Origin: a bacterium
GTDB lineage: Bacteria; Armatimonadota; Zipacnadia; Zipacnadales; Zipacnadaceae
Assembly: GCA_030603495.1 (NCBI GenBank)
Contig: JAUVXR010000006.1
Coordinates: 1-64,000, forward strand
Length of the DNA stretch: 64,000 nucleotides
Direction: 5' to 3'
The notes beneath the pieces were generated by a model. It saw nothing but the letters and a program-made list of their open reading frames with translations. It was not told where the DNA came from and did not search any database. Below are positions 35,453-60,799 of the stretch, one piece after another. Both the position numbers and the translations under genes were made by a program. Numbering within the stretch: position 1 is the first letter of the stretch; each line of letters starts with the position of its first letter.

Positions 35453-35728
35453 TTACTCGCTGGCAGCCTGGGCTGTTCCTGCTTGCCGCGCCAGTACTGA
35501 CTTCTTGCGACCAGCGCGCCGGGGGTGCAATACACCAGCCTTGGTAGCCTTGTCAATGGCCTGATAAGCACGATTGAGGGCTTCCTGGGTCTCTTGCTCA
35601 TCGCCGCTACGCACTCTCTCGAGGGCCGCGCGGGTGGCGTACTTGATCTGATCCTTGAACTGGCGATTGCGCCGTGTGCGCTTCGCCGTTTGGCGAATGT
35701 GCTTGTGCCGCGCCTTTATCTGAGGCAT
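35453..35728 (-). CDS. rpsT: 30S ribosomal protein S20
   Basis: 91 residues, very basic, with the S20 patterns AKRTRRNRQFKDQIKYATR, AYQAIDKATKAGVLHP and RKKSVLAR. It binds 16S rRNA early in 30S assembly. The gene faces the PqqD-like gene tail to tail with a 20-bp gap. A promoter stands at 35800-35829 and the 65-nt leader has mutually exclusive small stems (CTGCC/GGCAG and GCCGC/GCGGC), which might serve the translational self-control known for S20 in other bacteria; that is inference. Confidence 0.97.
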   Translation of the reverse strand: MPQIKARHKHIRQTAKRTRRNRQFKDQIKYATRAALERVRSGDEQETQEALNRAYQAIDKATKAGVLHPRRAGRKKSVLARQAGTAQAASE

Positions 35729-35799
35729 ATCGAACTCTCTTTCGTATCATTCAACTAAATAGCCGCCTGCCAGCCTGCTCTGCCAGCGGCAGCCTCATT

Positions 35800-35829
35800 A
35801 TTATAGCACACCCACGCCAGTAAAAGCAA
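35800..35829 (-). promoter_or_regulatory. Promoter of rpsT
   Basis: TTGCTT (35824-35829) and TATAAT (35800-35805), spacing 18 bp, on the minus strand. It lies behind the terminator of the upstream RNA, so rpsT does not depend on that transcript. Confidence 0.75.
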
Positions 35830-35884
35830 GCAGCCACACAGATCTGGGCTCAAGTGACTACGCCAGCTCACGGCCTCCGTCTGG

Positions 35885-36102
35885 AAAAATAGGCAGCCGA
35901 GCTCCCTTCGGGGCGGAAAAGAGCTCGGCTGTATTCTTGCTACCTACTGGCTTCAATGCTGTCTGTGTAACGTAGGTAGCTGAGGCCCGTAGACTCAACC
36001 TGCCAACAGATGAGGAGGCGATCTTTGCTGCGTCTCGGGCTGCATACACTGCTGCCGTTCGAGGCTTGTATATAGATATAGGTCCAGACTTATACAAGCT
36101 TC
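35885..36102 (-). ncRNA. Candidate structured small RNA, about 218 nt, family unknown
   Basis: Between rpsT and the methyltransferase lies a complete minus-strand transcription unit without a credible reading frame. Its promoter is a perfect TTGACA-17-TATAAT (36109-36137). Its start is near 36102. A first stem follows at once (GCTTGTATA 36064-36072 with TATACAAGC 36091-36099), another at 35939-35980 (GCTACCTAC with GTAGGTAGC, 9 bp), and the unit closes with a 10-bp terminator stem AGCCGAGCTC/GAGCTCGGCT (35895-35930) followed by ATTTTT (35885-35890). A CCTCCTC stretch near 36013-36019 could pair with ribosome sites. I could not match it to RNase P RNA, SRP RNA, tmRNA or a known riboswitch; 6S RNA is not excluded. 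Confidence 0.65.
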
Positions 36103-36108
36103 TACATC

Positions 36109-36137
36109 ATTATAGCAACTCTCACAGTAAATGTCAA
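36109..36137 (-). promoter_or_regulatory. Perfect consensus sigma-70 promoter of the candidate RNA
   Basis: TTGACA (36132-36137) and TATAAT (36109-36114) with 17-bp spacing, on the minus strand. This is the best match of any promoter in the window and implies a strong, constitutive RNA. Confidence 0.85.
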
Positions 36138-36181
36138 GGCCTATGCGAAACTTTTTTCGACCAGTACCAGCCCCCGGCTGG

Positions 36182-37114
36182 CTAGACCAAGTCCACACTC
36201 AGCAGCACCTTGTTCCCCACTCCCAGCAACCGCAGCACCCGTTCCGCGCCCCAAGTGATACTGCTGAGCAGCCCAGCGCCAACCTGCGACTCACCCAGCC
36301 CGTCGCTTACCGGCCCGGGGGGCAGGTCGAGGTATAGCCGCTGCTGGCGTACCCGGAGGTAGTCGCCGTGTATCATCTCCCTGAGGCGCACAGCAGACAG
36401 CCGCGTGGGTTCAATCCGTGAGTACTCACGGCGGTGCGCCAGCCGGAGCCGGCCGAGCAGATTAAAGATGGCCCCGGTATAGGGCTCAATAATAACCAAC
36501 CGGTGGCGAGCAACGCGCACCAACTCGGCAAAGCCCACCGCCGGATCAGGGGTGTGGTGCAGCCCTGCCACAACGACAGCCAAGTCAAAACTGCCCTCGG
36601 GGAAGGGAAGATGAAGAACGTCGGCCTGCACATAGGGCACCTGGTAGCCCCTGGCGGCGGCGCGCTTGGCCAGGCCGCGCAGGGCTTGCGCAGAGAGATC
36701 CGAAGCAGAGACCTGGTAGCCCGCCTTTACCAGTGCTTCGACTTCATAGCCGGTACCGCAACAGGCGACGTGCACCGACCCCTTCTCAGGGAGACCCTCT
36801 GCCAGGGCTGCCAGCAGATGCCCCAGGCGCTCCTCCATGCGCCGGCGGCGGTAGCGGGGATGGAAATCCGGTTTAAAAACAGCCTTGTCGGGGAGCTGAC
36901 CAAAATGCTCGTCCTGCCCGGCCATCTCCTGCCGCCCTGCCGCTGACAGCCCGGCCCAGTCCACCATACGAGGCACACCGTCCGTGATAGCGTACGCTGT
37001 ATCACATTCGGTGCACCGCAGCTCTCGTCTGTCGTGCCGCAGGTGTCCGCGGCAGGTCGGGCAGACCAGCAGGTCCAGGCGATCCCAGGTTGTCTCAGTC
37101 TCGTGACCGGCCAT
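36182..37114 (-). CDS. SAM-dependent methyltransferase with Trm112-like zinc domain
   Basis: 310 residues from ATG 37114. Residues about 15-50 form a Trm112-like zinc ribbon (LVCPTCRGHLRHDR, LRCTECDTAYAITDGVPRM), followed by a class I methyltransferase: motif I VHVACCGTGYEVEAL, then ASDLSAQALRGL, ADVLHLPFPEGSFD and GLHHTPDP. It resembles methyltransferases that act on lipids or small molecules, sometimes linked to envelope sugars. A longer frame reaches 37201 but would need a TTG start with no ribosome site. No signs of operon partners downstream except the RNA unit. Confidence 0.82.
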   Translation of the reverse strand: MAGHETETTWDRLDLLVCPTCRGHLRHDRRELRCTECDTAYAITDGVPRMVDWAGLSAAGRQEMAGQDEHFGQLPDKAVFKPDFHPRYRRRRMEERLGHLLAALAEGLPEKGSVHVACCGTGYEVEALVKAGYQVSASDLSAQALRGLAKRAAARGYQVPYVQADVLHLPFPEGSFDLAVVVAGLHHTPDPAVGFAELVRVARHRLVIIEPYTGAIFNLLGRLRLAHRREYSRIEPTRLSAVRLREMIHGDYLRVRQQRLYLDLPPGPVSDGLGESQVGAGLLSSITWGAERVLRLLGVGNKVLLSVDLV

Positions 37115-37351
37115 GAATGGCACGTCATCTATTTCGCCGCTCCGAGTAGCTATCCTGCCGCAGGAGCCAATTCGCTCGACCTCACAGGCAACAACAGCCA
37201 AAAAACAATGGGCTCAAGTTGCTCATTTCGGGAACCGAATGGACATCAAACACGTCCAATATAGGAATACCACAAGCAGCCAAGTACGGCGCGAGAGCAT
37301 TCGCGCCTGTGTAACTTGGTGCCATCTACCATAACAAGCCGATCTCGCGGG

Positions 37352-42038: not shown

Positions 42039-42393
42039 GGGGGCGAACTGGATTCGACGGGGAGCCAGTGCGTCACGGCTGCAGGCCGAGATCTCCGCTG
42101 CCTCGTAAAACGCGGAAAACAATAACTGCCAATAACCAACTGGCACTCGCTGCTTAATCACTAAGCAGCACGTCCCCCCGGCCCCGCTAGTCGGGTTGGG
42201 GTGTGGCGTAATAAGATTAGCTACTCGCTGGCGGCCGCTGGGACAGTCGGCGGGGAAACTTAATCCCAGATAGCTCCTGGATCAAGCCCGGTACGAGGGC
42301 TCATCAGGGGCGAAACCTAATACTCGTACTAAGCCTGTAGAAGCTTTGTCGGCAGCTCTTCGGACGCGGGTTCGATTCCCGCCGCCTCCACCA
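42039..42393 (+). ncRNA. ssrA: Transfer-messenger RNA
   Basis: 355 nt. The 5' end GGGGGCGAACTGGATTCGAC and the 3' end GGTTCGATTCCCGCCGCCTC followed by CACCA pair to form the tRNA-like half (acceptor GGGGGCG with CGCCTCC). The resume site follows AATAACT and the tag reads GCC AAT AAC CAA CTG GCA CTC GCT GCT TAA, giving A-N-N-Q-L-A-L-A-A. tmRNA frees stalled ribosomes and marks the unfinished protein for proteolysis. The normal partner SmpB is not in this window. Confidence 0.95.
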
Positions 42394-60492: not shown

Positions 60493-60799
60493 AAATTGAA
60501 GCTGCAAAGACGATGACGGGGAGTAGTAGGCGCGGGGAGGATAACAGAGAGGTCGCTCCTGGCTGAAAGGCGACTATCCGAAGCGCACTGAAACTCGCCC
60601 CCGAGTCGCGGGCTGAACCGGCCCTCACTAGGCCCAAGTAGGTACCGACGGAGTTCCCGCCGTTACAAGGGAAGCGGTATCGGAGAGTTGTTGCTCTCCC
60701 GTGCCGTACAGAGCGGGCCGCTTCGGCGGCCAATTAGAGTGGTACCGCGGATTGCTTAGGTCTTCCGTCTCTTAAGAGATGGGAGGCTTTTTCGTTTTT
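60493..60799 (+). promoter_or_regulatory. T-box leader of leuA
   Basis: About 300 nt. The T-box sequence AGAGTGGTACCGCGG is at 60736-60750, with UGGU placed to pair with a tRNA ACCA end. It is followed by a 12-bp terminator stem (GTCTTCCGTCTC 60760-60771, GAGATGGGAGGC 60776-60787) and TTTTT (60788-60792). Stem I features GATGACGGGGAGTAGT and AGAGAGG lie near 60512-60552. A CTC at 60594-60596 is the likely leucine specifier. Uncharged tRNA-Leu would prevent termination and turn leuA on. Confidence 0.85.

Follow-up and report, generated by a model that had tools for sequence, protein, structure and literature searches.

The closest described systems are small RNAs that carry C-rich or anti-Shine-Dalgarno (anti-SD) loops. 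The alpha-proteobacterial alpha-r14/NfeR1 RNAs ('cuckoo RNA', Rhizobiales) are free-standing, trans-acting sRNAs, in which conserved hairpins with variable stems present unpaired anti-SD motifs; hairpins with CCUCCUCCC loops silence mRNAs at translation initiation regions (PMC10746234, PMC3927594). RNAIII of Staphylococcus aureus is also named as a C-rich-loop sRNA (PMC3927594).

The RNA gene considered here lies in a stretch of 64,000 nucleotides (the window; positions 1 to 64,000 of contig JAUVXR010000006.1) from a member of Candidatus Zipacnadia, an Armatimonadota class that was described from marine sediments (PMC10290634). Like alpha-r14/NfeR1, its product is read as a free-standing trans sRNA with conserved hairpins, variable stems and unpaired anti-SD motifs. 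It differs in the absence of CCUCCUCCC, its length of about 215 nt, its phylum and the lack of an Rfam match, and also in its four domains, with a long P1 arm and the blocks CGCAGCA and GCGCCCAGGCUGA. A motif listing across 38 homologues gives no repeated exact CCUCCUCCC loops; CCYCC(U) is present instead. The best reading is that the Zipacnadia RNA would be analogous to the alpha-r14/NfeR1 RNAs, and not a member of that group. With RNAIII it has in common C-rich hairpin loops able to pair with Shine-Dalgarno (SD) sequences, whereas sequence and Rfam indicate no relation and the Zipacnadia RNA is much shorter and has no coding part. It is also of the same length class as 6S RNA (RF00013), with which it shares a strong promoter, single copy and a long helical arm.

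The RNA is absent from Rfam 15, and a search of the literature on RNAs of Armatimonadota gave nothing relevant. For a poorly studied, mostly uncultured class, it is the first concrete candidate for a lineage-specific regulatory RNA of high abundance, conserved there like 6S RNA as a single-copy, structured RNA with a near-consensus promoter. A covariance model is now available to annotate it, and its loops provide a testable idea, namely anti-SD regulation beyond the well-studied phyla.

The RNA gene and its transcription unit

The RNA comprises four domains: the 5' hairpin P0; the P1 arm, consisting of an outer and an inner helix and an apical region of 25-30 nt; the P2 hairpin; and the terminator hairpin P3 (Table 1). 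Its 5' end would lie 6-7 nt past the -10 box, and its 3' end within the T-run. Compared with dinucleotide shuffles, the fold is more stable by 4.8 sd, and none of 200 shuffles is equally stable.

Table 1. Features of the RNA locus in the window. Positions are those of the window; R2 is the covariance model described in the text.
Feature	Positions	Strand	Basis
Promoter, sigma-70-type TTGACA-17-TATAAT, extended -10	36109-36137	-	12/12 match
RNA, about 215 nt	35885-36102	-	Model R2 match 35884-36101, 162.8 bits, E 3e-45
P0, 5' hairpin, 9-bp stem GCUUGUAUA/UAUACAAGC	36064-36099	-	36099-36091 with 36072-36064
P1 arm	35985-36040	-	Outer helix 36040-36036 with 35989-35985; inner helix 36030-36027 with 35999-35996
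Anti-SD-like motif GCCUCCU, P1 apical region	36013-36019	-	CCYCC conservation; CCUCCU of 16S 3' end
P2 hairpin, 9-bp stem GCUACCUAC/GUAGGUAGC	35938-35981	-	35981-35973 with 35946-35938
P3, terminator hairpin, C-rich loop (CCCC 35913-35910)	35894-35931	-	Pairing and loop motif
T-run TATTTTT of intrinsic terminator	35885-35891	-	Sequence
Upstream neighbour, Trm112p-like + class I methyltransferase	36182-37201	-	Pfam PF08241, PF03966
Downstream neighbour rpsT (ribosomal protein S20), own promoter	35453-35728	-	Pfam PF01649

The elements that the initial annotation had read from the window are confirmed, apart from the length of one stem. The exact TTGACA-17-TATAAT on the minus strand (36137-36132 and 36114-36109, with a 17-nt spacer and a TG that precedes the -10 box) matches at all 12 positions in a promoter scan with the laxer threshold of 9/12, for which chance alone would give 0.4 promoter-like sites in this region. 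Both 9-bp stems, the one at the 5' end and the second, are present in the fold. The terminator, described as a 10-bp stem and a T-run, proves right as to hairpin and T-run and wrong as to length; its stem has about 15-16 bp, followed by CCTATTTTT. The separate rpsT promoter placed behind the terminator corresponds to a promoter-like site that is weak (9/12), and a similar GTGCTATAATA-like site occurs in congeners.

TTGACA or TTGACT is found upstream of 36 of the 38 homologues together with a -10-like box, at a spacing of 17 in nearly all; in the other two (G017 and G022), TTGACA straddles the boundary of the aligned start. This near-invariant promoter suggests that synthesis of the RNA is strong and constitutive. 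Almost all homologues have a near-consensus promoter and a terminator of their own and, as judged by sequence, the gene is a free-standing transcription unit.

Distribution and covariation

A DNA search of relatives adds five members of the window's genus that carry the RNA; a further copy was seen in a seventh member on reading its rpsT locus. A covariance model from seven genus sequences (R1) has matches in other families of the order. A second model from 24 sequences (R2), run against 291 Armatimonadota genomes, yields one clear match in each of 37, all from the class Zipacnadia (46 genomes). Thirteen of the 37 lie outside the training set of R2, with E-values from 1e-35 to 1e-12; examples of such untrained matches are G024, G019, G032, G021, G029, G025, G015, G017, G022 and G042. 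The match in G041 is weak (E 0.003), yet TTGACA-17-TATAAT and a terminator are correctly placed, making this a probable 38th homologue.

For the eight class genomes without a convincing match, a renewed search with laxer filters gave weak matches only. Weak partial matches in G013 (L128) and G037 (L129) were set aside as chance, with long open frames or no promoter or terminator. Outside the class, the R2 search of the 291 genomes likewise returned weak matches, none convincing: those in G213, G273, G079, G184 and G248, and L152 from among the matches that a further search added, were read and rejected on the same grounds. The large searches used stricter filters, and as far as searched the family appears confined to the class Zipacnadia.

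Covariation was assessed in two alignments. In 24 sequences aligned with MAFFT, pairing holds for 85% of cells, and both partners have changed in 31 of the 43 pairs. Not one of these measures is attained in 500 shuffles. Sliding the partners lowers pairing to 33-42%; since RNAalifold derived the structure from this very alignment, that comparison is somewhat tilted in its favour. An alignment of 37 sequences, which was made by a model and leans to the structure, has 87% of cells paired and both-side changes in 35 of 43 pairs (0/500 shuffles), with 298 both-side-changed cells against 106 in shuffles and 35-41% pairing in slid controls. Compensatory changes support all helices. In P0, with the consensus UUGUAUAGG..CCUAUACAA, 80-82% of cells are paired; the P1 helices have 85-92% of cells paired and both-side changes in 6/9 pairs, P2 shows such changes in 9/10 pairs, and P3 in 14-15 of 15, with 90-97% of cells paired. 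Conservation of the stems had been set beforehand as a point on which the proposal could fail; they are kept, with compensatory changes across 37 sequences. The suggestion in the initial annotation that the locus holds something undescribed is upheld by this conservation in 37-38 genomes, and by the absence from Rfam 15; a real, well-supported and undescribed RNA family is near-certain on the sequence data.

The pairing partner of the P1 3' strand differs between lineages (window 35984-36102 and homologues). Most use the P1 5' strand, whereas a segment of the P0 loop is the better partner in family f2, in g3, in G042 and in part of the window's genus. For both pairings, own pairs are more stable than swapped pairs (-17.0 against -11.2 and -13.9 against -10.6 kcal/mol, among related and hence not independent sequences), which indicates that a closing helix is retained across the change of partner. 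Pairing of the P0 loop with the P1 3' strand, used in model R1, was dropped as the consensus because the wider alignment favours the 5'/3' pairing of P1, which the P0-loop pairing replaces in some lineages. Family f5 can form both, as a possible pseudoknot or two-state arm; the latter would possibly consist of two 5' segments competing for one 3' strand.

C-rich loops and a proposed mode of action

The P1 apical loop contains CCYCC in 26 of 37 homologues and CCYCCU in 21, against 8.6 and 2.3 expected when each loop is shuffled, and the loop of the P3 terminator has the C-rich motif CYCC in 27/29 (11.7 expected); the sequences are related, so these counts are not independent. Many of the CCYCC and other C-rich loop motifs are predicted to be unpaired. 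The 16S rRNA of the window's genome ends in CACCTCCTTT and shares CCUCCU with the P1 loop, so that the apical loop copies the anti-SD core. The idea that the CCTCCTC patch (36018-36012) could bind ribosome sites gains support from the conservation of CCYCC across families. Within the window's genus, five of the seven genomes show a weakened or shifted apical motif, and a C-rich terminator loop is missing from family f5; the conserved, predicted-unpaired anti-SD loop is therefore not invariant. A gene-start test of SD use in the window's genes does not separate real starts from out-of-frame starts.

The preferred reading, to which we assign an about even chance of being correct, is a new sRNA, made constitutively and acting in trans by pairing with SD regions; the RNA is probably an abundant regulator of translation. 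The P1 arm would hold up the apical loop with its CCYCC motif, and the terminator hairpin would offer a second C-rich loop in most lineages. Both loops may bind G-rich SD regions of selected mRNAs, and this pairing would block ribosome loading on the bound mRNAs. Hfq may help where it is present. It is found in 29 of the 46 class genomes, including that of the window; since several RNA-bearing genomes (such as G009, G012, G015 and G017) have no Hfq match, it is, allowing for incomplete genomes, not a general requirement and probably not essential. Within Zipacnadia, Hfq is patchy, with no match in families f2 and f4 and genus g4, and is present in other families.

Competing readings of the locus

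In congeners whose contigs show both neighbours, the RNA stands between the methyltransferase gene and rpsT. This position, directly upstream of rpsT (S20) and on the same strand in the genus, would suit a cis-acting leader or attenuator, but the terminator stands before a separate rpsT promoter, and in G008 the RNA follows the same methyltransferase gene with Hsp20 next and rpsT elsewhere. Other families have an unrelated gene next, or one on the opposite strand. Neighbours outside the genus include Hsp20 (g3) and, on the opposite strand, a radical SAM protein, a PrsW protease or a transpeptidase, and in f5 a gene read from sequence, not from a domain scan, as folylpolyglutamate-synthase-like lies upstream. 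Neighbours that vary by lineage, with the next gene often on the opposite strand, argue for a free-standing RNA that acts in trans. The RNA is neither an rpsT leader nor tied to one operon; the leader reading is rejected on this changing context and retains next to no likelihood. In the window, a TTG frame of 79 codons runs across the region and could point to an mRNA for a small protein, but the position, frame and length of open frames vary between homologues, indels are not multiples of three, and changes preserve base pairs. No conserved reading frame is found among the 38 homologues, in keeping with the earlier view of about 218 nt without a credible protein, here an RNA of about 215 nt; a small-protein gene is rejected as extremely improbable.

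Known RNAs fare little better. Against Rfam 15, the locus gives nothing at the gathering score, and relaxing the limit to E 10 adds only matches that are eukaryotic, partial or at chance level; none of the homologous loci has an Rfam RNA at the site. The covariance search proposed in the initial annotation thus finds no match to a common RNA, and its statement that the RNA is not RNase P, SRP RNA, tmRNA or a riboswitch stands, with nothing credible at gathering or relaxed thresholds. The models for SRP RNA, tmRNA and RNase P do not match at the locus; the window's genome has a separate SRP RNA gene (G000:C17), and in G009 the RNase P gene is distinct from the RNA and lies about 500 nt away from it. 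With no model match and separate genes for these RNAs, identity with 6S, SRP RNA, tmRNA or RNase P is rejected. A divergent or second 6S RNA, formerly the main alternative, would fit the similar length (about 200 nt), the strong promoter and a long P1 arm with internal loops. However, the 6S model has no match with E up to 10 at 35700-36300, P0, P2 and the terminator hairpin are foreign to 6S architecture, and the 6S RNA of the window's genome lies on another contig (G000:C10:70377-70552, 78 bits). A separate 6S is found in 34 of the 46 class genomes, the two RNAs being distinct, co-occurring loci in most of them, and neither the 6S locus L001 nor the SRP loci match R2; a divergent 6S is strongly disfavoured and very unlikely. 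Another rival is a protein-binding RNA that serves as a scaffold or sequesters its partner; it would resemble 6S or CsrB in principle, without being related to either. The unpaired blocks GCGCCCAGGCUGA and CGCAGCA, which neighbour the anti-SD motif, are about as conserved as it is, and their conservation is unexplained by SD pairing; they would be protein sites, with the C-rich loops as part of them. The near-consensus promoter and single copy, as in housekeeping RNAs, and the conserved multi-helix architecture are also consistent with protein binding, whereas no known protein-binding motif is recognised, and the 6S model is unmatched with the genuine 6S separate; we consider a protein-binding RNA somewhat unlikely.

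Aside from an sRNA with selected mRNA targets, a rather improbable but broader role would be that of a class-wide housekeeping RNA, either mimicking the 16S anti-SD sequence and tuning translation globally, or assembling a new ribonucleoprotein on its conserved unpaired blocks; its P1 arm would possibly have two states.

The Trm112p-like zinc domain fused to a class I methyltransferase adjoins the RNA in most members of the genus, as well as in a single genome from a sister genus. The window also contains a tmRNA gene at 42039-42393 (+; RF00023, 196.7 bits) and a T-box leader at 60504-60775 (+; RF00230, 110.6 bits).
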